Of a DNA stretch of 64,000 nt, positions 39,208 to 58,498 are shown piece after piece (position 1 is the stretch's first letter; every line of letters begins with the position of its first letter). The DNA is taken from the IMG/VR virus record IMGVR_UViG_3300034106_005441, positions 1-64,000 of that record; one strand, given 5' to 3'. A model generated the notes under the pieces. It had not been told where the DNA came from. It did no database searches and worked only from the letters and a program-made list of their open reading frames with translations. The translations under genes and the position numbers were made by a program. This DNA comes from a virus.

Positions 39208-41160
39208 TTACAGTGTTTTTGGCGGTGAGCCTAGTGGGACTTGCGGGGTACTTGCGGGGTACTTGGGGGGTACTTGGGGTGTCGGCTCTGGTTTCCAGCC
39301 GCTCGTCGCGCCCGAAAGACCGAACTGCTCGCCGCGCGCTAAAGCCGGCACGTAACTGCTGCCCGCCGCGTCACTGGCTCGCCCACGATGCACGCTATCT
39401 AAGAAACCGCGCTCCTGATACGAGCCCAACATGCGTGTCATCCAATCGGGGTCGTTAGAAATATTGGCCATGCCGCGCACCATCTCAGACTCAAACGGCG
39501 GCGGTTCTTTATGCGCTTGAATGTTGTTAATGCCATACTTCTTGAGGTTATCAGCGACGCTCTTGGTAATCTTGGTGCCAATCGAGTAGTGCAGTGCCGG
39601 TTCTTCCAGATAATGATTTGAGAGCGTGGCTGGATTACCCGCAATGGCGCCGTCTCTCGGCCGCCACGAGCGCTCTAGCATTGAATACGGCACCACGTCG
39701 TCTGGGGCGTAGTCGCCGTACTCGTCGTTCATGCGCACATGGTTAATAAGCCCGCGCGCGACCAGTTCAATGTTTCGACGATGCGAGGTGATGCCAGAGT
39801 TCTTCAAAACGTCGCGCATGGCGGAGACGAAATAGCGGCGTCCTTCGCCGACGCCTTTGTGTCGCACTATCTCGGCGGGATTAGGCATGCCGTCTGAGAG
39901 CACGTCGCCGGCCTCCAGCGGGTCGCCCTTTTTTACAGAGACTACTCGGTCGGCGGGGACGTAGTGCTCCTCGCCGTCCACGACGACGTACGAGCCGCCT
40001 TGGGCCGCTGGGCGGATTTCCTGCACGCGGCCTTCACGCTGGGCGTGCGTGGCGCCGTCAGGATATTTCTTTGGCACTTGCACCAGTGCGTTAATAGCCT
40101 TAAAGCCGCCGATAGACTTTGCACCGCCGACACCGCCGGAGTGCTTGGACGAAAGCTGAGACTGCGAGACTGGCTCGGACAACGCCTGCGCGGCTGCAAC
40201 GCCGACGTAATCACCCACCGGCGGCAAACGACCCTTTTCCCGATAGCCGACATCGCGGGCGTATACGCCGCCGTCTTCGGGGCCGCCGACAGTCGGGCTG
40301 CGCACTAAAATATCTTTAATCCCCATTTCTTTGAGGTCTTTAAGAATCTTGGGGGTGAGCAACGTGTTGCGCTTATACTGGCCAATCGGGCGGGCAAGAA
40401 ACGCGCCCTCGTTATCTGGGTCGTCGACGTCCGAAGGCATGCCGCGGTTATGGGCCGTAGCGATGCGCTCCTCGTCGTCATCGTCATCAGCGGTCACAAG
40501 CAGACGATGCGCCATCTGCGTCAACTGCTTGCCGTAAAAGCCCGCGTCGGCCGTGGCTGTCTTAACGTCAATCACACCCTTGCGCGTCCCGAAGCTGGCG
40601 GCGAAGTATTCCGCCGGCGTTAAACCGCGGCCGTACGAGCGCAACACCGGCAGCGGTATCGGCTCGTCTTTGTGGTCAACGTACTGCATGTCGGCGCCGA
40701 TAAGCGAGTTCAGCGTAAACTTGTTGCCACTACCGCCGCCTAACACCTGATGCACCAACGGGTTGTTATTTTCTAGCGCCTCGTTGTACACGTCTTCGAC
40801 GAGTTTTTTTTGCGTGTCAGCGGCGAGTTGCAGAATTTTTAACTGCCGCTCTTTTTCCGACGTGCCGGGCGTCGCCATGATGCCGCGCAGCTTTTTACGT
40901 ACTTCTAATTCCGCACGCCGACTGGCGAACGTCGGCTTGATGTCTTTTAGCCCCATCGACAGGCCGCCCGTCGAGTACGCCACGTCGCGAGAGACGTCAT
41001 GAATCTTCTTCATGACTTCGCGGTATTTATCGGGGTGGCGCTTTGCTAGATCAGTGGCCAGCGCGCCCATATTCTTCTTGTCGAGCACGCGGTCGTAGTT
41101 CCGCATGTCTTCCGGCAACGCTTCGTTGATGAGTAACTGGCCTAACGTTGTTTTTAACAC
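39208..41160 (-). CDS. RNA polymerase beta' subunit, C-terminal half (RpoC2-like)
   Basis: 650 residues, GTG start at 41160, 9 bases after the preceding stop. Residues 178-223 (GRGLTPAEYFAASFGTRKGV, ATADAGFYGKQLTQMAHRLL) align with the bridge-helix-adjacent and trigger-loop region of bacterial beta'. Residues 315-345 (DYVGVAAAQALSEPVSQSQL then SSKHSGG) align with the IGVIAAQSIGEPGTQLT region. The trigger loop folds over the incoming NTP at the catalytic centre. Large lineage insertions of bacterial beta' are absent. The end is Pro-rich and encoded by four 11-base tandem repeats. With the fused beta-beta'N protein it would complete the core. Confidence 0.9.
   Translation of the reverse strand: MLKTTLGQLLINEALPEDMRNYDRVLDKKNMGALATDLAKRHPDKYREVMKKIHDVSRDVAYSTGGLSMGLKDIKPTFASRRAELEVRKKLRGIMATPGTSEKERQLKILQLAADTQKKLVEDVYNEALENNNPLVHQVLGGGSGNKFTLNSLIGADMQYVDHKDEPIPLPVLRSYGRGLTPAEYFAASFGTRKGVIDVKTATADAGFYGKQLTQMAHRLLVTADDDDDEERIATAHNRGMPSDVDDPDNEGAFLARPIGQYKRNTLLTPKILKDLKEMGIKDILVRSPTVGGPEDGGVYARDVGYREKGRLPPVGDYVGVAAAQALSEPVSQSQLSSKHSGGVGGAKSIGGFKAINALVQVPKKYPDGATHAQREGRVQEIRPAAQGGSYVVVDGEEHYVPADRVVSVKKGDPLEAGDVLSDGMPNPAEIVRHKGVGEGRRYFVSAMRDVLKNSGITSHRRNIELVARGLINHVRMNDEYGDYAPDDVVPYSMLERSWRPRDGAIAGNPATLSNHYLEEPALHYSIGTKITKSVADNLKKYGINNIQAHKEPPPFESEMVRGMANISNDPDWMTRMLGSYQERGFLDSVHRGRASDAAGSSYVPALARGEQFGLSGATSGWKPEPTPQVPPKYPASTPQVPLGSPPKTL
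39236..39279 (-). repeat. 11-base tandem repeat in the 3' end of the beta' C-terminal gene
   Basis: Four consecutive 11-base units (minus strand CCCCAAGTACC, CCCCAAGTACC, CCGCAAGTACC, CCGCAAGTCCC). Because 11 is not a multiple of 3, each unit is read in a new frame, giving PQVPPKYPASTPQVP. Gain or loss of a unit would change the last dozen or so residues. Confidence 0.85.
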
Positions 41161-42120: not shown

Positions 42121-45100
42121 TCAGGCTTTATCTTCTACGATGTGTACCGGCGTGTCCACGTCAATCTCGCCGCGCCGATATGCCGACAGAGCATCCTTCT
42201 TGCTGCGATAAACCCGCGGCTTCGACCGATTGTTCATTTTACTGGAAGCTAAGTATACACCAGTCTGATAATCCTTGTTCGGTACATAGTGCGCTTTAAA
42301 GTTCGCCGTGGCAAAAAGGTTTTTACTGGGGAGCATCTTTTCGACAGCTTCCTTGGCGGCGTCGTCGGTGCTCGGGACGTGATACTGCATGGCGTCCCCG
42401 TCAAAATCGGCCCCGAAGCCCTTTGTAATAACAGGATTTACTTCCATGACCTTGTTTTTGGTCAGGCGCGGATAAAACGCCATAACCCCGTACCTGTGCA
42501 AGACCGGCGCGCGGTTAATAACAATAGGCTTAGAATTCATTTGCTTGTCGAGTTCGTCAAAAGCTGCCTTGTTTTTGTCCTCTACAGCGCGCAAAGCTTC
42601 CATTCTGGGCAAACCCCGTCGCACGAGGCCACGCACGACAAACGGCTTATAAATCTCCCATGCTTTTTCTTCGGGGAGCGCGACTTCGTCCATGTCCAAG
42701 TCGGGATTCGGGGTAATCACAGCACGGCCCACAAGATCGACGGTGCTGGACAGCAGTTTGCGCTGCATGGTGCCGAACTTAGGGCTGTCCCCGAATATCT
42801 TGGACAGGAAGCCCCGGACATTGCGCTCGACGTTCTTGGGGTGCTGCGGGTCGCCAAGTCCGGTGACGGCTTTCATCGAGTCGTAAAGAGACAGGCGCTC
42901 GTTCCCGTAATCGGCAAATGCGCCAGACGCCTCTTTTAAGACGTTATTGGATTCAAGCAGTTCTTTGTAGAGATAATTGGCGTCATCTACGAGCGGAAGC
43001 TTTTTAGCCCCCATTGTCGAGACAGGCCGGAACGCAGGGGGCAACACGCCGACCTTGGTGAGCATCCAGCTTTCAGGATTTACACCAGTAGCTTCGGCGC
43101 CCTTTAAAAAGCCTAGACGGCGTACGGCGGCATCTCGAATAGTTTTGCGGCCTGATTTGATATCTTCCCGCGCTTGGTCAATAGCCTTCGGAACGTTAAT
43201 GCGCTTCAAAGCATCCTGAATGGCCGCAGGTCCCGTTGAGTCGCCCAGTTTGTCTTGGCCAGCGAGAATGCCACGGAATTGCTTTTCAGTAAGCCCAAGA
43301 ACGCGGCGAATGGGTTCTTCCATAATCGGGTTGGGCATTGGCTCGTGTAACGTGATCTTCGCCCAACGATTGCCGCCATGACCCCCCGTAAGCGTCTCAT
43401 CGAACAAGCCGCCTTTGATGGGCTTGAGATTGCCTTTCCAGTCGACGGTCTCGGCGCTGGTTAATTCACGGTCTCCAGCCAGTTCGTCGATGGACTTGTC
43501 GGTCAGGGCCATGATGTGCGTTTTAGTTCCCGTACGCACTGTATTCACGCCAGAAGCCCGCAGTTGATTTACAAACTTCTCGTAGACGTGCGGAACTTTG
43601 GGGAGCGGCGGGTCGTAGCCAGCCATGAATTGCGTCCAGTATTCAGGGTTGGCTTGGCCGCGTACCATTTTAGAATCGCGTACTACTTTGCCGGCGCCGT
43701 GGGAAAGCAGAGCGCCTAGTTCCAGCATCCCGACTCGCTTGGCGCCTTCAGAGCCACCTTTCGCGGGTGTGCCTTCGGCTGTGTATCCACCGGTAGAGCG
43801 GCCTTGACCTTTAGACTCGGCTGTGTGGTGGAGCTTCATAAAGAACCGATGGCCAGTTAAAATTCCCTTGATCTTCCGGCCAGATTCCGGGTCAGTCAGG
43901 TCTTCGGTATCAGACAGGCCGTTTTTGGCGAGTTCCTGCTGCGCGTACTCTATTAAGTCCCGCTGGTCGTCGAAGTCTTTAATTTTGAATGGCTGGCCGG
44001 TCTTGGCGGCGATTTTGCCCAGTGCCGCCTCAACGATCTGGGCGGGGTTTACACGGTTAATAAGTCCGAGGGGGCTGACAAGTATCTCCATCGGGTTTCC
44101 GTCCTTGTCGGCGGGCATCTGGCCGTCTGGGACGATTTCAGATACCACGCCCTTGTCGCCAAACCTCCCAGTGATCTTGTCGCCCACTTCCATCTGAGAC
44201 TGAGACTTTACAACAACCGAGACGCCCTTCTTGGTGTGCTCAACGTCCGTAACAATTCCGGGCGAATGATGGTCCCACGTAATAGTTTCGTTAGCAAAAG
44301 ACCCGCCACGACCTCGATGGACTTTGCCGTATACCTGATCGCGCTTTTTGGCGACGAGGACGAGCGGGTCACCAAAGTTCACAGTCATGCCCTTCTTGAT
44401 AGCGCCGTTGTCGTCAAAGTTATCTAACAGCTTTTTGTCGTACTCAGAAGGAAACAGCGACATGAAAGCTTTTTTGCCGACGTGAGTGTTATCGTCCCAT
44501 TCGGCTTCGTTCTGATACATGTGCTGGCTGGTGAGTCTTTTGGCGGCAGACTCGGAAATTACTACAGCGTCTTCGTAGTTTCTTCCTCGGAACGGCAGAT
44601 AGCCCACGCGGAGGTTTAATCCCAGCGCAGCAGAGCCGTTCTTGTCCGTAAAGTTCGACGTTGCGAGAAGCTGGCCGGGTTTGACTACGTCGCCGGGCTG
44701 CACCGTAGGCGTCTGCGTCCAAAACGTCTTCCGGTTGAACGGCATGTCGTTATACAAATCAATAACTTGCTTCTGGCCGTTTTGGTCGCGCAGAATAATT
44801 TCGTCAGGAGTAATAGACTCGATTTTGCCGCCGAATTGTGATTTGATGGCGCCCAATTTCTCGCCCATCTCGTCTTCATGCGAGGTGCCCGGCGTGTCCG
44901 CTTTTTCAGACTGCACAAATGGGGCTTCCGCGTTGGCGAGAGGTAGCGCCTGTGTAAACATTCGGCTACCCATGATGACGCGCTGGCCTTTTACCATAGA
45001 CTTCATCGGCACCATATTTGTGAGGGCCGAGAAAGTGCTGTCCATATTGGGAACAGTGTATTGCGCGTCTTTTTTGGGCACGTATTTAATCTTGCCGTTT

Positions 45101-46533
45101 ACTAAAGCCGCGACCATAGGCAGATCAGACTTTTCTTCGCCGGGAAACATCAGCGGCATGTCGGCGAGTTCTTGCGGAGTTTTATACTCAGTCTCGCCAG
45201 TCTGAGAGTTTTTTACGGGCACAACGAAAGTGTGTAAGTTCTGCGCGGATTTACGGGCGCCAGCAGCAAAACGCATATCGACACCCACTTTGCCGCTTTC
45301 AGGCGTGCGCAGATAGTCGATGAAGCCAAAATGACTCGGCTGCACGCTACGAGATTCGGCGGGGACTGCGTCGAGGGACCCAATACCGCCTTCGCCCAGT
45401 CGAGTTACGCGCGTTTGGTGGTCGAAGATTTCCGCAGGGTTGATTTCTTCGAGACTGGAGCCAAGGCCAGACCCGATGAGCGCTGCGGTAATCGACTTGT
45501 TAAACACGCCCGACGGAATGTGATCCAGAGACTTCTTGGCCGTGGCTTTCCAGAGCAATTGGCGCAAGGCTGTCTTGTCCTTGACGAAGCGCTCGGAAAT
45601 TAAATCTTCCGGGCCAAAGACTTGCTGATAAGTCATGCTATCGCGGTCGTCAGAGTCGGCCTCTTTGCGATTTACGGCAATCAGCTTCTTGGTAATATCC
45701 AGAATCGCGTCGGGAGTGAGGTTCTTGTAAGGCTTGCCGAGCGTGCGTTTGGTGACTTCTTCGTCCAACTCTGTCTTGTTAAACTCTGCCGCGATAGCCT
45801 TGATCTTAGCGATCTGGTCTGCGTTGGCGTCTGGTTTGAAAACGAGGCGTTGATAAAGTTTGTCGAGCGTGCCGGCGTCGCCCTTCTGCATGTTAACCGC
45901 AGTGATTTCGTTACCCCAAGTTTCGCGCATTTGCTTGTCAGTCACGCCGAGCGTCTTGAGCAGCGGCATGAGCGGAATCTTAGCCTGCCCGATCTGAATC
46001 TGGAACTCACCAGACTTGGGGTCCATGTAGTACCGGTGAGAGCGACCTTTACCGGGCAGCGTATTAACGTGCGACTCCAGTTCGCCGTTCTCCTTCTCGC
46101 GCGTGAAAACACCCGGGCGCAAACGGAGTTGATGCGCAAGCGTGTACTCAACGCCTTTGTTCACGAATGTGCCGGAGTCCGTAAGGTACGGCACATTGGC
46201 GATCGTGGCTTGACGCGACGCGACGGGCTGCTGCGTCTTGTTATCGATCAGCGTCCAAGTGCCAGTGAGCTTACGCGCCAAAGAGCCGCGCGTGAGCACA
46301 GCTTTCTTCTGGTCTTTGCGGCTGTAGCGGTCGGGGCCGGCGTATCCGACGTTCTGTAACTGCAGAGTGTACAGGTCGTTCTGGATCGGCTCAATGCTCG
46401 ACGCGCTGCGCAACGCTTCGTTAAAGATATTATCGCGCAGAGCGGGCACATCGCCGAATGCGCGAGTTTGCGGCTGCGAAATAGCCGGCGCAGTTAACGG
46501 CGGCAGTGGCGGCGGTGAAAACTGGTCAGGCAT
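42121..46533 (-). CDS. RNA polymerase beta subunit fused to N-terminal half of beta'
   Basis: 1470 residues from ATG 46533 (GAGGTG upstream; TGATG overlap with the preceding stop). Beta motifs: SHFGFIDYLRTPESGKVG (about 400-417, rifampicin-region match), RGRNYEDAVVISE (about 649-661), VGDKITGRFGDKGVVSEI (783-800), RSTGGYTAEGTPAKGG (912-927). After residue about 960 it continues as beta': PPAFRPVSTMG, LVGRAVITPNPDL, INRAPVLHRYGVMAFYP and the catalytic GADFDGDAMQYHVP, with Asp1376, Asp1378 and Asp1380 chelating magnesium. It stops about 90 residues later, where cyanobacterial RpoC1 also ends. No Cys occurs, so the beta' zinc ribbon is lost. Confidence 0.95.
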   Translation of the reverse strand: MPDQFSPPPLPPLTAPAISQPQTRAFGDVPALRDNIFNEALRSASSIEPIQNDLYTLQLQNVGYAGPDRYSRKDQKKAVLTRGSLARKLTGTWTLIDNKTQQPVASRQATIANVPYLTDSGTFVNKGVEYTLAHQLRLRPGVFTREKENGELESHVNTLPGKGRSHRYYMDPKSGEFQIQIGQAKIPLMPLLKTLGVTDKQMRETWGNEITAVNMQKGDAGTLDKLYQRLVFKPDANADQIAKIKAIAAEFNKTELDEEVTKRTLGKPYKNLTPDAILDITKKLIAVNRKEADSDDRDSMTYQQVFGPEDLISERFVKDKTALRQLLWKATAKKSLDHIPSGVFNKSITAALIGSGLGSSLEEINPAEIFDHQTRVTRLGEGGIGSLDAVPAESRSVQPSHFGFIDYLRTPESGKVGVDMRFAAGARKSAQNLHTFVVPVKNSQTGETEYKTPQELADMPLMFPGEEKSDLPMVAALVNGKIKYVPKKDAQYTVPNMDSTFSALTNMVPMKSMVKGQRVIMGSRMFTQALPLANAEAPFVQSEKADTPGTSHEDEMGEKLGAIKSQFGGKIESITPDEIILRDQNGQKQVIDLYNDMPFNRKTFWTQTPTVQPGDVVKPGQLLATSNFTDKNGSAALGLNLRVGYLPFRGRNYEDAVVISESAAKRLTSQHMYQNEAEWDDNTHVGKKAFMSLFPSEYDKKLLDNFDDNGAIKKGMTVNFGDPLVLVAKKRDQVYGKVHRGRGGSFANETITWDHHSPGIVTDVEHTKKGVSVVVKSQSQMEVGDKITGRFGDKGVVSEIVPDGQMPADKDGNPMEILVSPLGLINRVNPAQIVEAALGKIAAKTGQPFKIKDFDDQRDLIEYAQQELAKNGLSDTEDLTDPESGRKIKGILTGHRFFMKLHHTAESKGQGRSTGGYTAEGTPAKGGSEGAKRVGMLELGALLSHGAGKVVRDSKMVRGQANPEYWTQFMAGYDPPLPKVPHVYEKFVNQLRASGVNTVRTGTKTHIMALTDKSIDELAGDRELTSAETVDWKGNLKPIKGGLFDETLTGGHGGNRWAKITLHEPMPNPIMEEPIRRVLGLTEKQFRGILAGQDKLGDSTGPAAIQDALKRINVPKAIDQAREDIKSGRKTIRDAAVRRLGFLKGAEATGVNPESWMLTKVGVLPPAFRPVSTMGAKKLPLVDDANYLYKELLESNNVLKEASGAFADYGNERLSLYDSMKAVTGLGDPQHPKNVERNVRGFLSKIFGDSPKFGTMQRKLLSSTVDLVGRAVITPNPDLDMDEVALPEEKAWEIYKPFVVRGLVRRGLPRMEALRAVEDKNKAAFDELDKQMNSKPIVINRAPVLHRYGVMAFYPRLTKNKVMEVNPVITKGFGADFDGDAMQYHVPSTDDAAKEAVEKMLPSKNLFATANFKAHYVPNKDYQTGVYLASSKMNNRSKPRVYRSKKDALSAYRRGEIDVDTPVHIVEDKA

Positions 46534-47780
46534 CACACACCTCGTGCCGACGCCGGACCAGCCTCATTTGTTAAACGCTTTACTTCCGCCAACTCAGTCG
46601 GATCAATCCACGGCGTGTCCAGCCCCTGCATTCTGCGCCGCGCTTCGCGTGCCTTCTGGAGATTGCGCGCTTCAGACCTAGCCTTCGTCTGATCGTACAT
46701 GTACTTAGCGCCAATGGCCCCGGCGCCGAGTCCGCCAGTCAGCATTAAATTTGTAAACACACTGTTCGTGTCCTTGATGGCGCGGTCGGCGGGTTCGAAT
46801 AGCACGTCGTAGAAGTACTGCGGGACCGTGCGATCTTTCTGTGCAAATGGCGTGATATTTTTAAAGTAATTCTCCCACGTGCGCGCAACAAGGGCCTGTT
46901 TCTCGAACTTCTCTGGTGCGGCCTTATACGCGTCGTACAGCACGTCTAGCTGAGCATCCAACGCGGCCTTCTTTTCTGATTGGTCGTCTTGCTCTTCTTT
47001 TTTCTCTTCCGGCGGTTTGCGACCAGTCAGCGCCTCGAAGTAACTGCGGCGAGCGGCTTCGACCTTTTGCAAATTTTTCTCGTTTTCATTTTGTCGCGCG
47101 GCGGTATCGACAAGTGCCAGTCCGCCCGCAGCGCCAGCGGCGGGAAGAGTTGCGTTCAACACACTGCGCCAAGCGTCGTGACCCGACGATTCAGAATCGT
47201 AGTCGCTTCTACCGGGGCGAAACGGACCTGTAAGTGTGCGCGGCATATTTTCAGACACGTAGTGCCAAAGCGGCCGTGACGTAGCGGCGGCAGTGCCTAA
47301 ACCGCCAACACCGCCGAGCGTTGCTCCTAAAATCGCATTTTGTCGCCGACGGCCCTTCGGCGCTCGGGCGGCGCCGATAAGCGCGCCCGCGCCAGCACCC
47401 AAAGCTGGCGCCATTACAAACATCGGATCGAGTGCGGCGGCTTTGGCGTTGCCGGCCGTCAAGAAAGGCAACGACGGCATCTCAGGTAAAAGAGATTCCT
47501 CTTCGTCTTCCGCTGGCACAGTAACCTCAGAAATCGGCTCGTTCGCGACGGCGACAGGGTCGGGAATAGCTGTGGCTTGACGATACTTATCAGCCAAATA
47601 GCGCGATAGATAATATAAGCCGCCGACGCCAAGACCTGCCAGACCACTATACATAACGCCTTTACGAAATTCGTCGCCAATTCCGGCGTTGTTCTGTCTG
47701 TCATACGCCTCGCTGCGGCCGGGAGGCAATGGTCGCGACGCGCCCCATGTCGACTCAGCCGCTGTTTTATTGATGCTCAT
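46533..47780 (-). CDS. Glycine-zipper hydrophobic protein upstream of RNA polymerase
   Basis: 415 residues with several Gly/Ala-rich hydrophobic segments: VMYSGLAGLGVGGLYYLSRY (about 42-61), APALGAGAGALIGAARAPKG (about 122-141), LGATLGGVGGLGTAAATS (about 148-165) and NLMLTGGLGAGAIGAKYMYD (near 350), separated by charged linkers. This looks like membrane-inserting or pore-forming virion ejection proteins. Stop and start of the polymerase gene overlap (TGATG), so both are made together, which would suit co-packaging. This is inference. Confidence 0.6.
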   Translation of the reverse strand: MSINKTAAESTWGASRPLPPGRSEAYDRQNNAGIGDEFRKGVMYSGLAGLGVGGLYYLSRYLADKYRQATAIPDPVAVANEPISEVTVPAEDEEESLLPEMPSLPFLTAGNAKAAALDPMFVMAPALGAGAGALIGAARAPKGRRRQNAILGATLGGVGGLGTAAATSRPLWHYVSENMPRTLTGPFRPGRSDYDSESSGHDAWRSVLNATLPAAGAAGGLALVDTAARQNENEKNLQKVEAARRSYFEALTGRKPPEEKKEEQDDQSEKKAALDAQLDVLYDAYKAAPEKFEKQALVARTWENYFKNITPFAQKDRTVPQYFYDVLFEPADRAIKDTNSVFTNLMLTGGLGAGAIGAKYMYDQTKARSEARNLQKAREARRRMQGLDTPWIDPTELAEVKRLTNEAGPASARGV

Positions 47781-49225: not shown

Positions 49226-49250
49226 GATAATTGCGCCGCAGCCAATTATC
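49226..49250. repeat. Inverted repeat upstream of 163-residue gene
   Basis: Perfect 8-bp arms GATAATTG (49226-49233) and CAATTATC (49243-49250) around a GC-rich loop, in a 113-base gap. It may end the transcript from the 86-residue gene or bind a regulator. The rest of the gap holds only a weak 41-codon frame overlapping the next start. Confidence 0.5.
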
Positions 49251-49506
49251 GCGAAATAGTGTCCCCGCGCGGTGGACCCTCGCAGTCGGGGCATTTCGTC
49301 CATTCATGGTTGTCGCCGGAGCGCACACGACCGGTGCCATTGCACGTGGTGCAATCTTTTGTCGGCACTTTTGGCTTCACTACTTTTGGTGTCGGCAGCA
49401 GCGACGCATAAGCGGCATCGGCGGCGATCAAACCCACATAGTCGGGCTGCGTGGGCTGCGGCACAGGAAAAAGAAACGCCAATAAGGCCAGTAACCACTT
49501 GAACAT
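49246..49506 (-). CDS. Small secreted/anchored zinc-knuckle protein (DnaJ-type motif)
   Basis: 86 residues. The N-terminus MFKWLLALLAFLFPVPQP is a signal peptide or membrane anchor. Two CxxC pairs (CTTCNGTGRV and KCPDCEG) form a DnaJ-like zinc finger near residues 53-76. GAGG precedes ATG 49506. An exported zinc mini-protein beside peptidase genes may be part of the lysis or envelope module; the mechanism is unknown. Confidence 0.65.
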   Translation of the reverse strand: MFKWLLALLAFLFPVPQPTQPDYVGLIAADAAYASLLPTPKVVKPKVPTKDCTTCNGTGRVRSGDNHEWTKCPDCEGPPRGDTISR

Positions 49507-49540: not shown

Positions 49541-49586
49541 AAAAAAGTTATGTCGTTCCGCGCGACAGATCAATTTGACGTGTCGC
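49541..49586 (-). terminator. Possible terminator after the papain-like gene
   Basis: Arms GCGACA (49562-49567) and TGTCGC (49581-49586) form a 6-bp stem. A T6 run follows on the minus strand about 15 bases later (49546-49541). The spacing between stem and T-run is long, so this is weak. Confidence 0.3.
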
Positions 49587-50611
49587 TAAATGTTGCCTTT
49601 TGCGCCATATGACTTCAACTTTTTGGGCGGCCAGCCGTTAACGCCAGAGAACGCGATCATGCCACGATTCTTCATATCCGACCACTTCGACCAGAACGAG
49701 CCGACAGGAATGTCGTACTTGGTGCCGTAAATACGCGTGCCGCCTTCGTTCCACTCACCCCATGAATTTTGAATTAACACCAGCGGCTCGCCGTATAGTT
49801 TTTTAATCTCGTCGCGATCGTCCACGGCCAGATAGGCGAGGGCGTGCGCCCAACCCTTTGGCGTGCGCTTAGATACGCCGAACTCGTCGCGAACGTTAGA
49901 CCACGACTCGCTACCACAACTGGTTATACAGTACCCATTCGCCAACAAGTCGCGGAGTTGTTCGTAATCTTTAACGTCAGTAGCGGTGCGGATTAAATGG
50001 TTTTTGCCGATCCCCAGCCACGATTCGGGAGGCGTGCGGGAGCCATAGATGCCGGCGTTGCGCGCGCTGTATGTCGTCAGATCAACACCGATCTCGTCGT
50101 ACTTTTTACGCAGCCACAAGCCGCTTTCCTTGAGCGCCACCTGCGCGGCGGCGCCGCACGACCAACCGTCGCCGCCGTGCCGGCGCCAATTGTAAAACGC
50201 TTCGGTCGAAAGCACGCCAAACATGCGGGCGGCTTCGCTGACTTCCGGGGCGCCCTCTAACTTACCGGTTACTTCGTCTGGTTTGCCGCTGGTAATCTCG
50301 CAGCACATAGTGCCCAATCCGGCGTTTCGCGTCGACCAACTGACGCAGTCGCCGCGGCCCTGAGCGCCGCCGGGCAGCGAATCCGGATACAACTCCAGAA
50401 TCTCCAGCACCGGCAGACTTAACTTGCCTTTGCCGCTATCAGCAATGCCCTGCGATTGACACGCCATGGCGCCGTCGGGAATACCGCCGGCAGAACGCAC
50501 AAAATCCCACAGCGCCTCGTCGGCAGCCGGATCGGCGTAGGCTCCGATAAAGCCTTTTTCGTATGTCGAGACGATGTCGTCAAGATTTGTAAAAAACTGC
50601 TCGTCAGCCAT
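49586..50611 (-). CDS. Papain-like (C1) cysteine peptidase
   Basis: 341 residues. Catalytic Cys89 lies in GRGDCVSWS, His256 in GWAHALAYLAV and Asn282 in LIQNSWGEWNEGG, in correct order and spacing for C1A peptidases. The usual oxyanion Gln and CxWAFS are replaced (GAQGRGDCVSWS). No signal peptide or typical pro-inhibitor domain is seen, and the catalytic region starts near residue 75. It sits between small exported or membrane proteins, so envelope degradation at lysis or entry, or processing of virion proteins, are possible roles. Confidence 0.85.
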   Translation of the reverse strand: MADEQFFTNLDDIVSTYEKGFIGAYADPAADEALWDFVRSAGGIPDGAMACQSQGIADSGKGKLSLPVLEILELYPDSLPGGAQGRGDCVSWSTRNAGLGTMCCEITSGKPDEVTGKLEGAPEVSEAARMFGVLSTEAFYNWRRHGGDGWSCGAAAQVALKESGLWLRKKYDEIGVDLTTYSARNAGIYGSRTPPESWLGIGKNHLIRTATDVKDYEQLRDLLANGYCITSCGSESWSNVRDEFGVSKRTPKGWAHALAYLAVDDRDEIKKLYGEPLVLIQNSWGEWNEGGTRIYGTKYDIPVGSFWSKWSDMKNRGMIAFSGVNGWPPKKLKSYGAKGNI

Positions 50612-50624
50612 TTTAAACCCCTAC

Positions 50625-51086
50625 TTAGCGGGCCGACGCGATGATCACATCGCAGGCCTTGACGAGTTTGCTCTGCATCAGCAGCGTAACCGGGTTGACG
50701 ACGCTCGGGTCGGTATCAGCGTCCTTAACGGCCGCGGCGAACACAGCCTCAATCGCTGCGTCCAAGCCTTCATACTTACCCGGAGTCGCTATCGCCATCT
50801 GCAGCGTCCGGGCATGCAGTTCTTCAAACTTCTCTGTCGTATTGACGCGCGCGGCATTATCTCGGTTCAACACTTCTTTTAAACCAGTGTACACGCTGAC
50901 GACGCGCGCTTTGTCAGCCGCAGTTGCGCCGGTCAGCGCTTTGACAATCGCCGCGTCGGGTTCAGCCGACACGGCTACGTCGTCTACCGCCACCGGCTTC
51001 GAGAAATACTTCGAAACGTTAATCCCGTTGGGGAAAAACACTGCGAAACCCAGCAAAACGCCAGCGGCCAGCACAAGCTTTTTCAT
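50625..51086 (-). CDS. Exported or membrane-anchored small protein
   Basis: 153 residues. MKKLVLAAGVLLGFAVFFPN is a clear signal peptide or N-terminal anchor with positively charged start; the remainder is a helical Ala/Val/Asp-rich domain (DAAIVKALTGATAADKARVV, CDVIIASAR end). No lipobox is present. It lies in the peptidase cluster. Confidence 0.65.
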   Translation of the reverse strand: MKKLVLAAGVLLGFAVFFPNGINVSKYFSKPVAVDDVAVSAEPDAAIVKALTGATAADKARVVSVYTGLKEVLNRDNAARVNTTEKFEELHARTLQMAIATPGKYEGLDAAIEAVFAAAVKDADTDPSVVNPVTLLMQSKLVKACDVIIASAR

Positions 51087-51110
51087 AGCATACTCTCCAG
51101 CAAAAATACG

Positions 51111-51377
51111 TCAGGCAACAGGTTTCTTAGTGTGCTCGACAATCACGCGCAGCAAGTTCGTGCACGCCTCAACGCCCTCGGCGCAATTTTCGGCCGCCAG
51201 CTTGTCGCGCAGTTCGGTGACAGCAATTAAATCGTTCACAATTGTCAACGCAATTGACTGTTCGCTCGACGGTACGCGGTCAAGACGACTAGCTACTAAC
51301 GCCCACAGCTGCTTGCGATATGTAACCGCCGTCAGCGCCACAAAAACACCCAAACACACAGACTGAAAAGTTGTCAT
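51111..51377 (-). CDS. Small single-pass membrane protein
   Basis: 88 residues. The N-terminal segment TTFQSVCLGVFVALTAVTYR is a transmembrane helix, followed by an amphipathic soluble part. Adjacent to the matrixin and other membrane genes; spanin- or holin-like accessory is possible. Confidence 0.6.
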   Translation of the reverse strand: MTTFQSVCLGVFVALTAVTYRKQLWALVASRLDRVPSSEQSIALTIVNDLIAVTELRDKLAAENCAEGVEACTNLLRVIVEHTKKPVA

Positions 51378-51407: not shown

Positions 51408-52220
51408 TCAGGTTTGCGGCACAAGTACATACGGCCGGCCGTTAATCATAATCCGCCCACCAATTTTTAGGCCAGCGTCTTTTGTTAACGGATACTTGCT
51501 TTTGCGCTTGCCATACAATTTTACAATCTCTTCAATATCGCCTGCTCGGGGCGCTGTGCAGTTCGGATCGTAATAGGGTGCCATTAAGTTACCAGCGTTT
51601 AAATGCGCCAAACCCAACGCGTGACCAATCTCGTGGCACATGACCGCGACCGCCATGTTAAAAGACCAGTCTTCGGCTTCGTCAAACATTTGGTCGAGTT
51701 GCATATTCTCCGCTACGCCACACGGAAGCTCGCTCCACGCTAATGTGCCGCCGCGAGCGTCGAGATTGTTTCTCTTGCCGACACCCGAACGCGCGTAAAT
51801 GTTGGCGTGCTCCTGGCGCTCTACACGCGTGGGTTCCAGATTGCAGACCTCGGCCCACTGCGAAAACGCTACGTCATACGCTTCTTTAATTTGCTCGTCG
51901 CTGAGGTTAGGAAGTTTAATGTCGTGGTAATACGTGACTTTGCTCATAGGCCACTTGCATGGGTCGGCAGCTGAGGTCAGATTAAAGTCCGGCAAGCCGC
52001 AGCGTAATTTACGAATGCGGTGCGCGGTTTTTTCATTCACCTCGCCGTTCGCTTCTAAACCATTAAATTTTTGATAAGCGCGCACGGCTTTCTGCAATTC
52101 GGCGCCCTTGAGCTTCTTTACAGCGGCCCAAGTTTTATCGCCGAAGTAACCGTAGTTGTACAGAAACTTGAGCACGTCATCGACCGGCAACACGCTATTG
52201 AGTGTAGACTTCCGTGTCAT
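51408..52220 (-). CDS. Matrixin (MMP-like, M10) metalloprotease with cysteine-switch prodomain
   Basis: 270 residues. Residues about 12-70 form a peptidoglycan-binding-type helical domain (VLKFLYNYGYFGDKTWAAVK, AYQKFNGLEANGEVNEKTAH). Residues 72-79 LRCGLPDF match the cysteine switch of MMP zymogens, with Cys74 able to cap the zinc. The catalytic site is HEIGHALGLAH (His196, Glu197, His200, His206) followed by a Met-turn at Met213 (NLMAPYYDP). It should therefore be made latent and activated by prodomain removal. There is no signal peptide, so export would need a holin or another route. Likely acts on cell-envelope protein or peptide crosslinks (inference). Confidence 0.9.
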   Translation of the reverse strand: MTRKSTLNSVLPVDDVLKFLYNYGYFGDKTWAAVKKLKGAELQKAVRAYQKFNGLEANGEVNEKTAHRIRKLRCGLPDFNLTSAADPCKWPMSKVTYYHDIKLPNLSDEQIKEAYDVAFSQWAEVCNLEPTRVERQEHANIYARSGVGKRNNLDARGGTLAWSELPCGVAENMQLDQMFDEAEDWSFNMAVAVMCHEIGHALGLAHLNAGNLMAPYYDPNCTAPRAGDIEEIVKLYGKRKSKYPLTKDAGLKIGGRIMINGRPYVLVPQT

Positions 52221-52229
52221 ACTCGCACC

Positions 52230-52643
52230 TTATTTGTTGGACGCGCGAACAATGTCAATGATGTCGGCGCGATTGGAAGATTTAATTGCGTTAACAGCTG
52301 CGGTAAAAAACGGGTTGTGGCGCGCTTTTGTAACGCCGTTTTTTACGCAGTGCTGGGCCCACAACACGTTTAACCGGCGCTTGAGCCGCATTAACTTGCG
52401 CGGCGGCAACAAATGCACGTTGGCGATATCTAGCTCCACGTCGGCGATGGACCGACTCTGGGTGCACAGACCGATCACCTGCAGAATGACCGAAATAATG
52501 AACAGAATAGTGAACGGGTCGACTCCGTAACTATTCTGTTCTTCTTCCGCCAGCAATTCTGCCAACAACCGCTGCTCTAGGCTTTTAAGGCCGGTACAGC
52601 GATCAATTTTAGATTGCAGCGCGACCAGTTCTTCATGTGTCAC
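52230..52643 (-). CDS. Membrane protein with one or two TM segments
   Basis: 137 residues. GTG start, overlapping the upstream stop as GTGA. DPFTILFIISVILQVIGLCT (about residues 42-61) is a transmembrane helix; the C-terminal half is basic (LLPPRKLMRLKRRLNVLWAQ). It is followed by the matrixin gene. A lysis accessory role is inferred from company only. Confidence 0.6.
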   Translation of the reverse strand: MTHEELVALQSKIDRCTGLKSLEQRLLAELLAEEEQNSYGVDPFTILFIISVILQVIGLCTQSRSIADVELDIANVHLLPPRKLMRLKRRLNVLWAQHCVKNGVTKARHNPFFTAAVNAIKSSNRADIIDIVRASNK

Positions 52644-53005
52644 GAAGCGCGCATCCTTTCGATCGTTACCGACTCTACGTACTGGTACTTCATGCGCAGC
52701 ATTTGCGATTTAAGCTCCAGCCGACCGGAAATAAGCTTCCAGATTAACAAAGAGTTCACTACGATCACCTCGCTGGCGCCGATCAACGCCGCAACAGCTT
52801 TCGTCAGCGTCTCTACGTCCGAGCTATGCAGCCAGCCAACGAGCGCCAAAACCGCCAACAGGTTTGAAAGCGTCGTCACCGCAGTTGTCGCCAGTTCCGG
52901 CGTCAGCCACTTTGTGACAATAGCTTTTTCCTCGTCGCCAAAAAAATCTGTGAAAATGCGCAGGTCCTCAACAGGAGCAGAAACCGGTTTCTTAGCTGTA
53001 GACAT
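52640..53005 (-). CDS. Holin-like membrane protein
   Basis: 121 residues with two hydrophobic helices (VTTLSNLLAVLALVGWL and AVAALIGASEVIVVNSLLIW), a polar N-terminus and a charged C-terminus, typical holin proportions. It couples to the next membrane gene and lies upstream of two peptidase genes. Holins form the pores that start lysis. No family-specific motif is visible. Confidence 0.5.
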   Translation of the reverse strand: MSTAKKPVSAPVEDLRIFTDFFGDEEKAIVTKWLTPELATTAVTTLSNLLAVLALVGWLHSSDVETLTKAVAALIGASEVIVVNSLLIWKLISGRLELKSQMLRMKYQYVESVTIERMRAS

Positions 53006-53016
53006 AGTGCACCTTT

Positions 53017-53997
53017 TTACGCGCGGTTAAACATAGCGGGCACGATCGCGTGCATCATGCCGCCCCAGAGTCCCATATCTTGTAGTTTTTCCTGGCCCAA
53101 CGGCGTCAAGCCGGCCATAGCCGATAACGCCCGGCCGGCAATATTAGCTGTCGCCAACCCCACCCCGGCGGACGCAATCCCCCGAATAACATCGACGGGC
53201 CGAATAATCGGCGACCGTTGTGCCGTACTGATGCCCGACATTAAACCCGTTGTCGCGGCGGCGTAGGCCGGCGGTGTGAACTGACTACCACCATTATACA
53301 TTCCGCGCTGGACATCTTGCCATGCGGCCTGATTAAACTGCGGAACAGACACGGTCGGCGCAAACAAATGCTGATTGTTAAACCGATCAAAACCAACTTT
53401 TTCGCCGGGCGCGGTTATAGGTGTGTTGTTTGGCGTAATCCATGATTTCCAAAAACCGATGTCGGGTCGGGTGCGCGACACGCCATAAGCGTTATTAAGC
53501 CCAACTAAACCACCGCCAGCCAGCCCCAGCATGCCAAGATTACGCCGAAGTTTGCCGCGCTCTAAATACCGCTCTGGAAACAGGTTTTCTGCCAGCGCGC
53601 CAGCGCCGTACCCAGCGCCGCCCAGCATCAAGCCGGACACAATCGCGTTGGACAGCGGCGTCGGGCCGCCCAGCATTTTGTGGCCGAAATCAAACGCGTG
53701 ACTAATACCCGAAATAGCGGCTGCTTTGATTAAAATCTCGCGGTTCCAGTCAGGCGCTGTTTTGTGCGACCGTAAAATTACACAGCGGTTATTGTCGACA
53801 GCTAATTTTGACAGCCGCTTCGGATTTGGGCGATAGAGCACCAGCACGTTATCCGCTGTGTCCCATGTCGCCAGCGAACCGGCCAAATCGCCCGTCTGCG
53901 CCGCAATTTTTTCGTACGCTACTCGCAGACGGGTGGCCTGCGGCAGCATTTCCGCCACGACATCGGGTACAGTTTTCCATTCCTGCAGCGTGCTCAT
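53017..53997 (-). CDS. Gly-rich hydrophobic protein, 326 residues
   Basis: Soluble N-terminus (EWKTVPDVVAEMLPQATRLR), then several Gly/Ala hydrophobic segments: ALSNAIVSGLMLGGAGYGAG, LRRNLGMLGLAGGGLVGL, and RGIASAGVGLATANIAGR. ATGA overlap with the 2H/Nudix gene upstream. Resembles the glycine-zipper proteins at 46533 and 48154; possible ejection or membrane-remodelling protein. Confidence 0.6.
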   Translation of the reverse strand: MSTLQEWKTVPDVVAEMLPQATRLRVAYEKIAAQTGDLAGSLATWDTADNVLVLYRPNPKRLSKLAVDNNRCVILRSHKTAPDWNREILIKAAAISGISHAFDFGHKMLGGPTPLSNAIVSGLMLGGAGYGAGALAENLFPERYLERGKLRRNLGMLGLAGGGLVGLNNAYGVSRTRPDIGFWKSWITPNNTPITAPGEKVGFDRFNNQHLFAPTVSVPQFNQAAWQDVQRGMYNGGSQFTPPAYAAATTGLMSGISTAQRSPIIRPVDVIRGIASAGVGLATANIAGRALSAMAGLTPLGQEKLQDMGLWGGMMHAIVPAMFNRA

Positions 53998-56054
53998 TGC
54001 GGCCGTCCAAATGCAGCGTTTAACAAATGATCGCCGTTGTTGTAAATAACCTGCTCGGCAAGGTTGGGTTCTTCCATTTCACCGCGCATGGCTTTCATGG
54101 CCAATTCGTATCGGTACTGCGGGCTTAACGTCGCCATGTACTGCTGGTGATTCCGGCGCGAGTTAATCATAAAGTCGCCTCGGCGTTTGACGTCCATTAA
54201 CTGACTGCGCACATTTTCAAACACTGGCTTGTTGTAGTCGTAAACAATCGGACGGCGCAGACTGTACATATTGCGCAACTGATTCATGTACACGTTTTCG
54301 GCTGCTTTTACGGTCGGCGGGATGATAGCTGGATCGGTATGCAGCCTAAATTTCGTGGGCTTGTGCGTGACGCCTTTGTGGTAGGGTTTCGGGTCGTCTA
54401 CTATCCAGTCCTGTGGAGCTTTGGCCATAAGCCGCCGTAAGATGTCCGTCTTTTCAGCGTACCGTTTGTTGTCGGAGTGTTCTTTAGCCAAGAGCAGCTG
54501 CGCTAATACGTCTTTGTGCGCGGCAATACTGCGCTTCTCTATTTCTTTGATTTTTTCGTAGTAGCTCTTGTCTTCGGACAGGTGATCCTTGGCAATTTCT
54601 TTGGCGGCTTGATCATTATTTGTGTGTTCGTACTCATGTTTGGCTCCTTCGGCTAACGCGGCTGGGGAAAATTCCCGATCGGGTAAATTGTCGGCTACAC
54701 CACCATGTAAAACGTCTTTTTGTCCCGAGCGGGAAAGTTCGGAAGATTGTTTATTTACAGCGTTGTCTATGATGTGTTGAATGGCTGCCATTCGTCCGTG
54801 TGCAACTGGCGGCAACATGAATTGTTTGTCTTGCATCAACGCGAGTGCTTTTTCCGGGTTGTAAAACCTGCGGTTGGTTGCACTCCAAAAATCAAGATTT
54901 TTGTTTCTCTGTTTGTTAACAAAATCAGCTACGACAAAATGCGTGCGTGAGCCCGCAAAGTTTCTGCCCGTGCGGGCTCTGTAATCATCACTCCACGGAT
55001 TATCGACTGGCGGTATTGGCAACAAAACCGGATTGGCGGCCTGAATGCCTGTTTCTTCAGCCAGTTCCCGTACGGCTGCCTGCTCGGGAGTTTCGCCGGG
55101 GTCAAGACCGCCGCCCGGAGCCGCAAAAGATTTATCTTCAGCCCACTGGCCGCCATAAATTTTGCCGGTTCTTGGGTGTCGAGTTAATATCTCAACGCGT
55201 TCCCGCCACGGAAGTTCGGAAGCCACTTTCGGTACGGCGAGCGACGGATACCCGGCTGTCTCCTGAAACTTCTTGAGCCGGGCGGCGAGCAGTTCTTTCT
55301 GCTGCTGGCTTCTCAGCCACGCATTGGCTATTAAAGCCAGATCAGTCATTTCTTTGTCGACATTACCGCCGGTGTTAATCGCAGCCTGCGTGTCTGTCAG
55401 ATGTTTCGGCAAAGCGGCAAGAATGTGCTCACGCTCGCCCCACTTGGGGGCCAACTTTGTTAAATCTGCCGCAGCGGCCTTACGTACTTCGTTGTCCTGC
55501 AGCACTTTCTTGCGCCGTACAGCGACGGTTATGTGAAACGCGTGGTCGCCATTCATGCGCGGCGACAGGCCATAGCTTTTGCGAAGCGTGGCGAGTTCCG
55601 GGCTCGATATCTCAATCACCCAGACCTTGCTCACGCCATCGACATTGCGGACGTCGATCTCTTTCATACCGCCGAGCTTGTACGAGAACATGTGCCCGCG
55701 CTCGTTAATATTGTCGACGCCGATTTTATTGACTTCGTCGGCGTTCATCACAGAGATATGCGCGTTTAGGACATCGGCGTCCACGTTTGGCGCATTCATC
55801 ACGCCGGCAAGTGGAAGCTCAGTGCCGGTTACAGAAAGCGCGTCAAAAACACCGCGCACAAGAGCGTTGGGCACAGAAAGCAGCAGCCAGCCGGATTTAG
55901 CCAGATAGAGCCGGCCAGTGAGCGGGTAATTCGTCGCGGCCTGCTTGTTGCCGCGGTACAGCCAGCCAAAAGCGTTGCCGGCTTTGTATTCAGGCGTCTC
56001 GGCATAAAGCTCGGGCCGCCATGTGCGCTGATCTAGAACTGAGAAGCCATCCAT
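53994..56054 (-). CDS. 2H phosphoesterase-Nudix hydrolase fusion protein
   Basis: 686 residues. The N-terminal 180 have two His-x-Ser/Thr motifs, AHISVM (His99, Ser101) and FHITVA (His174, Thr176), 75 residues apart, the signature of 2H phosphoesterases (LigT, cyclic phosphodiesterase, and T4-type anti-CBASS Acb1). Residues 314-336 are a full Nudix box G-x5-E-x7-R-E-L-x-E-E-x-G-I, preceded by GQWAEDKSFAAPGGGLD. The C-terminal 250 residues are helical and charged. Nudix enzymes cleave NDP-X such as ADP-ribose. The combination points to nucleotide signals, ADP-ribose or RNA-end chemistry. Substrate is not deducible here. Confidence 0.85.
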   Translation of the reverse strand: MDGFSVLDQRTWRPELYAETPEYKAGNAFGWLYRGNKQAATNYPLTGRLYLAKSGWLLLSVPNALVRGVFDALSVTGTELPLAGVMNAPNVDADVLNAHISVMNADEVNKIGVDNINERGHMFSYKLGGMKEIDVRNVDGVSKVWVIEISSPELATLRKSYGLSPRMNGDHAFHITVAVRRKKVLQDNEVRKAAAADLTKLAPKWGEREHILAALPKHLTDTQAAINTGGNVDKEMTDLALIANAWLRSQQQKELLAARLKKFQETAGYPSLAVPKVASELPWRERVEILTRHPRTGKIYGGQWAEDKSFAAPGGGLDPGETPEQAAVRELAEETGIQAANPVLLPIPPVDNPWSDDYRARTGRNFAGSRTHFVVADFVNKQRNKNLDFWSATNRRFYNPEKALALMQDKQFMLPPVAHGRMAAIQHIIDNAVNKQSSELSRSGQKDVLHGGVADNLPDREFSPAALAEGAKHEYEHTNNDQAAKEIAKDHLSEDKSYYEKIKEIEKRSIAAHKDVLAQLLLAKEHSDNKRYAEKTDILRRLMAKAPQDWIVDDPKPYHKGVTHKPTKFRLHTDPAIIPPTVKAAENVYMNQLRNMYSLRRPIVYDYNKPVFENVRSQLMDVKRRGDFMINSRRNHQQYMATLSPQYRYELAMKAMRGEMEEPNLAEQVIYNNGDHLLNAAFGRPQ

Positions 56055-56069: not shown

Positions 56070-56234
56070 TTATTTTTGGGCCGCCGTCGCTGTCGTGGAG
56101 TAATTTTCTGGGTTGGCGGCGGAAACAGTACTGCACACCGAAATTGCGTGCGCCGATAAAAACATGGCCCAGCCGCAAAGCGCAGCCATTACCCACGCCA
56201 TCAAGCTCAGTTGGTTACGGGTGTGTTGGTCCAT
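56070..56234 (-). CDS. Small membrane protein overlapping holin-like gene
   Basis: 54 residues from ATG 56234; ATG 56240 is also possible. One transmembrane or signal segment (LSLMAWVMAALCGWAMFLSA) is followed by HAISVCSTVSAA and a short polar tail. It overlaps the 3' end of the holin-like gene in another frame, as lysis accessory genes often do. No clear ribosome site, so coupling is assumed. Confidence 0.4.
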   Translation of the reverse strand: MDQHTRNQLSLMAWVMAALCGWAMFLSAHAISVCSTVSAANPENYSTTATAAQK

Positions 56235-56589
56235 GGTCATCGCTACTAGGGTGGCGGTGTGTCTCATCGCGGTCCCTCTCATGATTAATAATGATTTTAA
56301 TGCCGGCGCCTGACAAGAGAGAAATAAGCACGTCCGTTAACGTCGAGCCGCCCATGCCAGCCAACACACAAACGCCGATCAGGCCGTGGATATTTGCGGC
56401 TTTTTGATAGTTTTCGTACCAAATCAGGGAAATAGCTAAACCCAGAAATCCGGCGTTCAGCATCGAGCTTACCACCGCTAGTTTAGAAAGTTTCTTGCTG
56501 AAACGCAAAAGCGTAGCCAGCCCAGCAAAAGCTGAGACGCCGAAGGCCGCTGCAAATACGGATAAAGACACTATAACGTCATCAAACAT
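56215..56589 (-). CDS. Holin-family-like membrane protein
   Basis: 124 residues with three hydrophobic helices: VSLSVFAAAFGVSAFAGLAT, VVSSMLNAGFLGLAISLIWY and LIGVCVLAGMGGSTLTDVLI, then a charged His/Asp-rich tail (ERDRDETHRHPSSDDHGPTH). The pattern fits three-TM phage holins. A lysis role is inferred. It follows the candidate structured RNA and precedes the 2H/Nudix gene. Confidence 0.6.
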   Translation of the reverse strand: MFDDVIVSLSVFAAAFGVSAFAGLATLLRFSKKLSKLAVVSSMLNAGFLGLAISLIWYENYQKAANIHGLIGVCVLAGMGGSTLTDVLISLLSGAGIKIIINHERDRDETHRHPSSDDHGPTHP

Positions 56590-57463: not shown

Positions 57464-58498
57464 TCAGAGCACTTTGGCTGCGATCAGACAACCGCGCGCC
57501 ACAGCGTGCAGCGGATCGTTGGCATGCCGTACGGCTTTGACCGGCAGCGGGAACTCATTCTCTTCGAGCTTCTTGGCGAACAGATCGACGAAGCCCTTGG
57601 CCTGACTCGTGCCGCCCGCGATCACGACCGGCAGCGGATTCTTGAACTTGGGTAGCAGCTTGTGCCCCTTCATCGCGGCGGCCAGATTCTTTGTGGTGTA
57701 GTCGATGAGCCGCTCGTAATAGGAACTCACGGCGGCTAAAACAACATTATCGTTCGGTTGGCCGATGGTGAACTCGCCGTTCTCTTTCTCGGCTTGGACG
57801 ACGCTATCGGGCTCGCCGGTTGCAATCGCCGACATTCGATCAATCCAATCGCCGGACTTCGTCGTCGAGAACATGACGGTTGGTTCGCCGTTGAGCATGA
57901 CGCAGCAGTTCACCATGCCCGCACCGCACGACAGCGCTACGCCGGTATATTCGTCATTCTCTAGTTCCGAGTAGCACAGCGCCTCGGCTTCGTTGATGGC
58001 GCGCGCGTTATAGCCGCACGACGCCAAAACTGTCTTTACCACGTCTTCATGGTAGCCGACGTCGAACTCATCGTCTTCTTGATCCACGGGCTGCGCCGGC
58101 ACGCAGAACACCAGCTTCTCGTCCTGCTCGGCTGCTTTGCCGCAGACCTGCTTAAGAATGTAAGCCAGCACCCGCTTGGCTTCTTTTTCTTTGGAACTCA
58201 CGACGCCGCGGTACATCGGGCGCTTGGCTGACTCGTTGCGCTCAATAGCCTTCTCGATGGCGTCTTGGCCTAAAATAATAAAAGTGCCGTCGTTATCTTT
58301 GACGAACACTTTGCCCTGCAGCCCTTTCTCGATCATCTTAGTCGCCACAGGGGTAGTGGGCTTGATGCAATAGAAGGCGTCGCGAAACTCTTTGTAGGTG
58401 GTGTATTCCGCCTTGTCGTCGCTCGTGAAGCTGACGGCTCCCTCGGTGTCACTGGCCAGCACGATGTACGAGGTGCCGACGTCGAGTCCTTTTGCCAT
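57464..58498 (-). CDS. Actin/Hsp70-fold ATPase (ParM/MreB-like)
   Basis: 344 residues. Phosphate-1 loop GLDVGTSYIVL (4-14), connect-1 INEAEALCYSEL (168-179), phosphate-2 GVALSCGAGMVNCCVM (186-201) and adenosine motif VVIAGGTSQAKGF (291-303) are all present in order, so the nucleotide pocket is complete. Length matches bacterial actins and is too short for DnaK. Phage actin-like proteins organise DNA or replication sites (AlpC type). Upstream is a gene for a short membrane-anchored protein. Filament formation is inferred. Confidence 0.82.
   Translation of the reverse strand: MAKGLDVGTSYIVLASDTEGAVSFTSDDKAEYTTYKEFRDAFYCIKPTTPVATKMIEKGLQGKVFVKDNDGTFIILGQDAIEKAIERNESAKRPMYRGVVSSKEKEAKRVLAYILKQVCGKAAEQDEKLVFCVPAQPVDQEDDEFDVGYHEDVVKTVLASCGYNARAINEAEALCYSELENDEYTGVALSCGAGMVNCCVMLNGEPTVMFSTTKSGDWIDRMSAIATGEPDSVVQAEKENGEFTIGQPNDNVVLAAVSSYYERLIDYTTKNLAAAMKGHKLLPKFKNPLPVVIAGGTSQAKGFVDLFAKKLEENEFPLPVKAVRHANDPLHAVARGCLIAAKVL

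Follow-up and report, generated by a model that had tools for sequence, protein, structure and literature searches.

A pro-matrixin with a probable cysteine switch encoded by a lineage of large phages

The protease gene and its surroundings

The window analysed here, a 64,000-nucleotide stretch of viral DNA, carries at 51408-52220 a gene of 270 codons that is read from the minus strand. Its ATG lies at 52220 and its stop codon at 51408-51410, AAGG stands shortly upstream of the ATG, and the forward-strand reading of the same interval is riddled with stops; the coordinates given for this open reading frame in the original prediction were borne out. The product is a matrixin (Pfam Peptidase_M10, MEROPS M10). 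Peptidase_M10 (PF00413) scores 72.9 bits against a cut-off of 24 (E=3.6e-20) over the complete profile, and PG_binding_1 scores 35.6 bits against a cut-off of 23 at residues 18-66; besides these two families Pfam gave only weak, sub-threshold metzincin matches, and thus no known peptidoglycan-hydrolase catalytic domain. The zinc motif and Met-turn on which the gene was originally singled out are both present, and a chance motif is ruled out by alignment, conservation and structure. As judged from hydropathy, the protein lacks the hydrophobic N-terminus of a signal peptide. The features of the locus are as follows.

51408-52220, minus strand: whole gene of the 270-residue pro-matrixin (open reading frame preceded by a ribosome-binding site; M10 and PG_binding_1 both above their Pfam cut-offs)
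52005-52193, minus strand: prodomain, residues 10-72, helical PGBD/MMP-prodomain fold (PG_binding_1 at 18-66; PDB matches of residues 1-85)
51984-52004, minus strand: residues 73-79, RCGLPDF, a putative cysteine switch that aligns with the PRCGVPD of proMMPs; Cys74 codon at 51999-52001
51960-51983, minus strand: variable linker, residues 80-87, a candidate activation site (low conservation, low pLDDT)
51957-51959, minus strand: Cys88, probable disulfide partner of Cys167 (51720-51722), from joint presence and absence
51510-51956, minus strand: matrixin catalytic domain, residues 89-237 (PF00413, 159/159 positions; superposition on MMP catalytic domains at a target TM of about 0.8)
51603-51635, minus strand: zinc motif HEIGHALGLAH, residues 196-206 (all 54 family members compared share H196, E197, H200 and H206)
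51576-51587, minus strand: Met-turn LMAP, residues 212-215 (M213 invariant among clade sequences and almost invariant family-wide)
51411-51458, minus strand: C-terminal tail, residues 255-270, strand pair and INGRPYVLVP (N260, G261, P263, Y264, L266 and P268 invariant in 26 relatives)
52230-53005, minus strand: upstream neighbours, a 137-aa protein with one predicted membrane segment and a 121-aa protein with two (hydropathy)
50625-51377, minus strand: downstream neighbours, two proteins of 88 and 153 aa that both have a hydrophobic segment at the N-terminus (hydropathy)
49586-50611, minus strand: 341-aa protein with a papain-like QGRGDCVSW...WAHA...QNSWG pattern (read from the sequence)

A short C-terminal tail occurs in most family members, in many of them after a proline-rich linker; its sequence in most clade members is ING(R/K/Q)PY.L(V/I)P, and in the window protein strands are predicted at 256-259 and 262-265 with low confidence (pLDDT 55).

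The nearest small genes on both sides of the protease carry predicted membrane segments (hydropathy). On the same strand as the protease, the 137-aa neighbour is present at 56 and the 121-aa neighbour at all 68 of the 68 loci described below, and these two proteins are holin-like only in size and hydropathy-predicted topology; the 88-aa and 153-aa neighbours are found at 66/68 loci each. None of the small neighbours has a Pfam match. A further gene, with three predicted membrane segments (hydropathy), lies at 56215-56589. The 341-aa protein, a possible second protease from its papain-like pattern, is strongly conserved beside the matrixin, with Q84, C89 and H256 invariant in 18 relatives, and has no Pfam or PDB profile match.

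Several other minus-strand genes of the window could be described. An 86-aa protein (49246-49506; 60/68 loci) has a hydrophobic N-terminus and a zinc-ribbon-like CxxCxG...CxxC motif, and a 686-aa protein (53994-56054) has 2H phosphoesterase and NUDIX domains and weakly matches a phage portal profile (phrog_15528). An actin-like protein (57464-58498) matches Pfam Volactin at 3.5e-63 and has homologues in two uncultured huge phages. A multi-subunit RNA polymerase is encoded at 42121-46536 and 39208-41160: its 1471-aa part is a fusion of beta with N-terminal beta-prime and bears a NADFDGD-type catalytic loop (GADFDGDAM), and the second gene supplies a separate 650-aa C-terminal beta-prime part.

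Prodomain, switch and predicted structure

The best solved relatives of the protease (phmmer, PDB) are human proMMP-1 (4e-18) and proMMP-3 (6e-18), and the proMMP alignments extend from residues 13-16 to 237-241, that is, from the prodomain through the end of the catalytic domain. RCGLPDF, with the cysteine at residue 74 as first proposed, aligns with the MMP switch PRCGVPD; relative to the consensus PRCGxPD, the R, C, G, P and D are present and invariant, and the first proline is leucine in the window protein. When residues 1-85 were searched alone, the PDB matches were proMMP prodomains only, and the PG_binding_1 domain is therefore the MMP prodomain. The domain had been described from the outset as peptidoglycan-binding in type, which holds for its fold (PG_binding_1); it does not hold for a separate module, and an independent peptidoglycan-binding or cell-wall anchor was rejected on the same PDB result.

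RCGLPDF is invariant among 51 distinct clade sequences with pairwise identity down to 55%, and its codons vary freely across them (four codons for Pro, four for Gly, five for Leu and both for Cys). Mean agreement with the majority residue is 0.68 over the rest of the prodomain in the same 51 sequences, and in linker 80-87 it falls to 0.58, the lowest among the segments compared. Cys74 precedes the zinc motif by 122 residues in the window protein, and all five family members retrieved by the zinc-motif pattern with no condition on cysteine (L158, L176, L179, L183 and L184) have a cysteine 117-127 residues before the motif, in differing surroundings (CGIS, CMTP, CGRP, CGHP and CAYP); the other members were retrieved by patterns requiring Cys-Gly-x-Pro-Asp and are uninformative on how frequent the switch is. 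A 54-row alignment, in which such pattern-selected members are included, is invariant at C74, W90, H196, E197, G199, H200 and H206 and nowhere else.

Folding with AlphaFold from 26 close relatives gave a poor model (pLDDT 68; switch block 43). With the alignment enlarged to 54 rows by the addition of divergent members, mean pLDDT rose to 88.4 and pTM was 0.85, the block containing the switch reached 88, and the block at 81-90 (75) was the lowest within the two folded domains. The modelled prodomain has helices at 13-22, 39-52 and 63-69. The best PDB matches of the model are zymogens, with both domains aligned in each case: human proMMP-3 (1slm; target TM 0.82, 3.3 A, 239 columns) and human proMMP-9 (8k5w_B; target TM 0.84, 3.0 A, 237 columns). 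Because the two domains superpose together on these zymogens, prodomain and catalytic domain are predicted to adopt the inhibited arrangement. We infer from the superposition on 1slm and 8k5w_B that Cys74 is placed at the active site; a predicted position far from it, which would have spoken against the switch, was not what the model gave.

The view that there is no switch, in which the N-terminal domain serves to bind peptidoglycan, Cys74 has a structural role or is a relic, and the protease is synthesised in active form, draws on the PG_binding_1 match and on relatives in Planctomycetota in which the switch block is degenerate (CGVADH, CGVVER), though the cysteine stays. We consider it improbable, given the exclusive match of the isolated prodomain to proMMPs, the invariance of RCGLPDF, the predicted docked zymogen pose, and two members, L115 and L158, which lack the helical prodomain and yet keep the cysteine near the N-terminus. 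As a structural statement, the cysteine switch is highly likely, and the protease very probably uses it. The zymogen control that had been proposed for this gene is well supported, by a switch block held invariant under purifying selection and by a whole protein predicted in the docked pro-MMP pose.

A second pair of cysteines, Cys88 and Cys167, is invariant in the clade. In 15 of 16 divergent members both are present or both absent (Fisher p=0.025, uncorrected for shared ancestry), and in members with WPxxC the loop cysteine shifts together with its partner. A Cys88-Cys167 disulfide is probable from this pattern, and the simplest reading of the covariation, a disulfide and hence a location outside the cytosol, is what the pair suggests.

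Distribution, relatives and origin

Two scans of viral contigs placed the protease gene at 68 loci, and across these the 19 genes compared lie on one strand throughout, in nearly constant order; nine records of 194-205 kb contain one copy each. The two scans had selected on the protease itself, and a second survey was anchored on the neighbouring RNA polymerase gene. It yielded 31 loci, and the protease is present in 28 of the 28 long enough to show its position, the contig stopping before that position in the other three. The gene, for which absence or degeneration in relatives would have been damaging to the original prediction, is thus a fixed, core gene of this large-phage lineage. Among 50,697 annotated phage records, no isolated phage has a relative of the protease at E<=0.01. 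Equating the clade with a published lineage, the aquatic 'moraphage' jumbo phages, was considered and rejected, since the authors of that name report no RNA polymerase homologues.

A wider phage/prophage family, partly in Planctomycetota, retains the cysteine, also in members that have lost the remainder of the prodomain. A scan of 84,980 bacterial and archaeal species returned three genomes with relatives, all of them Planctomycetota (37-42% identity), and a matrixin of this type is rare in a sample of 392 Planctomycetota genomes. The Planctomycetota relatives may be prophages, because L038 has a phage-type ABC-GNAT gene nearby (phrog_11143, 2e-98). L126 and L179 carry terminase or portal and capsid genes and are phage contigs; in L126 a weak, sub-threshold match to a Planctomycete cytochrome adjoins the protease. 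Homologues of the window's actin-like gene, mostly of 35-42% identity, occur in 52 of 149 genomes of Planctomycetota, the only phylum compared. DNA matches of the phage to the 392 Planctomycetota genomes are mostly short, at about 70% identity, with many in the actin-like gene, and the same genomes gave no clear spacer evidence for a host. A Planctomycetota host is a lead for the wider family and a weak one for this phage.

Four further observations concern the relatives. A cassette consisting of the matrixin, then a secreted protein of about 430 aa and CxxCH cytochrome-like proteins recurs in Planctomycetota contigs and one phage contig, at the following positions.

L038, 4911-10305: cassette
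L039, 4917-9531: cassette
L126, 7493-10415: cassette
L184, 5686-8799: cassette

In L158 (4293-5342, minus strand) the matrixin is fused to a C-terminal helical domain. By eye, this domain resembles the small open reading frame that directly precedes the matrixin gene in L038 and L039, a hint that domain and protease work together. In L164, L170 and L178, matrixin-like zinc motifs lie within very long phage open reading frames (1041-1710 aa) that possibly encode tape-measure proteins. Finally, L163, L171, L174, L181, L191 and L194 encode a different metzincin, in which a cysteine (NICQQS) precedes HExxH by 120 residues and the CGxPD motif is absent; this cysteine may be a coincidence or another latency device.

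At about 30% identity, and with the full-length architecture in common with human proMMPs, the gene could be suspected to be a recent capture from an animal or a eukaryotic contamination. We regard this as extremely unlikely: the gene is uninterrupted and syntenic in 68 phage contigs, the ligands of the structural zinc are absent in the phage/prophage family, and a small tree separates that family (81/98) from the human MMPs, which group with secreted bacterial matrixins.

Function and comparison with known systems

The best reading of the locus, held at slightly under an even chance, is a late role in lysis or at the envelope, exerted by a pro-matrixin that the switch keeps latent. The gene yields a leaderless pro-matrixin whose MMP-type helical prodomain is predicted to pack on the catalytic domain, and RCGLPDF would enter the cleft, where Cys74 can be the fourth zinc ligand and the enzyme would be latent; these two steps are supported, and we infer those that follow. 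Inactive zymogen would build up in the reducing cytosol late in infection and leave it through membrane lesions made by the small membrane proteins encoded around it. Activation would come from oxidation of the thiol or from a cut in linker 80-87, made autocatalytically, by a protease of the host or by the papain-like neighbour. A Cys88-Cys167 disulfide would stabilise the enzyme outside, where it would cut envelope or cell-wall proteins and so aid lysis and release.

The genomic context leans toward this role, and the covarying cysteine pair, the membrane-protein neighbours of a leaderless enzyme and the Listeria precedent described below speak for it as well. In seven relatives of 198-205 kb, a search limited to six common lysis-enzyme families (Amidase_2, SLT, Phage_lysozyme, M23, Hydrolase_2 and M15_4) found no match over cut-off. 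Peptidase_M23 matches in the relatives were below cut-off, in large open reading frames corresponding to the RNA polymerase genes, and were dismissed. A bolder extension, which we hold to be rather unlikely, is that these and the related Planctomycetota phages and prophages rely mainly on a proteolytic zymogen, and not on a peptidoglycan hydrolase, to lyse hosts with a protein-rich envelope; the cysteine switch would keep the MMP-type proenzyme stored in the cytosol, and exit from the cell would turn it on.

Against the lysis reading stands the company of the protease in its conserved block. The polymerase is distantly related, at about 32% identity, to proteins of two kinds of isolated phage, Salmonella phage Arash and some Vibrio phages. 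In Arash, the homologues of the polymerase genes at the block end rank with the most abundant proteins of the virion (PMC10585845); this would fit packaging and makes packaging for entry the main rival. The zymogen would then travel in the particle, be activated on cell contact and open a protein layer of the envelope for DNA delivery, and the lack of a signal peptide by hydropathy agrees with this. The flanking genes, however, encode small membrane proteins and not recognised tail proteins, and elsewhere family members adjoin secreted or membrane proteins; we judge entry possible but unlikely. An intracellular protease, latent until assembly, that matures the head or virion or cuts a host regulator is less probable again, and very doubtful: zymogen control suits maturation and the protein is leaderless, but the covarying cysteine pair and the membrane-protein neighbours point outside the cytosol, and phage maturation proteases are normally of other folds.

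Cysteine-switch MMP zymogens are textbook enzymes of animals and plants, and phage matrixins are already known as sequences from BFVD entries; in the open-access literature we found no description of a matrixin with complete prodomain and RCGxPD in tailed phages. That a large-phage lineage has the full proMMP architecture among its core genes, with a wider family besides, suggests a new way of timing proteolysis in lysis or entry, and the phage protein offers a compact, leaderless pro-matrixin for study. The phage/prophage relatives also bear on the origin of the proMMP design; a 2025 survey in which MMPs are argued to have arisen in bacteria mentions neither phages nor the switch in its text (PMC12587646).

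With the animal proMMPs (MEROPS M10A; 1slm, 1su3, 8k5w) the phage protein shares the prodomain fold, the RCGxPD switch, a matrixin domain with HExxHxxGxxH and Met-turn, and the predicted domain arrangement. It differs from them in having no signal peptide, no hemopexin domain and no structural-zinc ligands (of the His, Asp, His, His site, LAHAF is replaced by LAWSE and DAHFD by DQMFD, and the first His-x-Asp is missing), and in its extra conserved cysteines and short C-terminal tail. The viral matrixins in BFVD include A0A6J5RTD2 of an uncultured Caudovirales phage, a Zn-protease of Lactobacillus phage 3-521, and iridovirus and baculovirus MMPs. A0A6J5RTD2, listed as uncharacterized, has the matrixin fold and aligns over the whole length (TM 0.70/0.64) at 18% identity. 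The insect-virus MMPs work in animal hosts.

Among bacterial systems, Listeria Mtz/Tim, a secreted metzincin with a TIMP-like lipoprotein, is alike in that a metzincin of phage origin is tied to cell-wall weakening and phage lysis, and it raises sensitivity to phage lysins (PMC8235301); it differs in being secreted and paired with the lipoprotein, and the text of that report mentions no cysteine switch or prodomain. Karilysin of Tannerella forsythia and mirolysin are bacterial metzincin zymogens whose pro-segment likewise blocks the catalytic zinc (PMC6949598). Karilysin, the bacterial MMP with studied latency, uses an aspartate switch on a pro-segment of 14 residues; in mirolysin, a pappalysin, the zinc is blocked by a cysteine on a short pro-segment, and cysteine switches are known in bacterial metzincins of such other families (PMC6949598).
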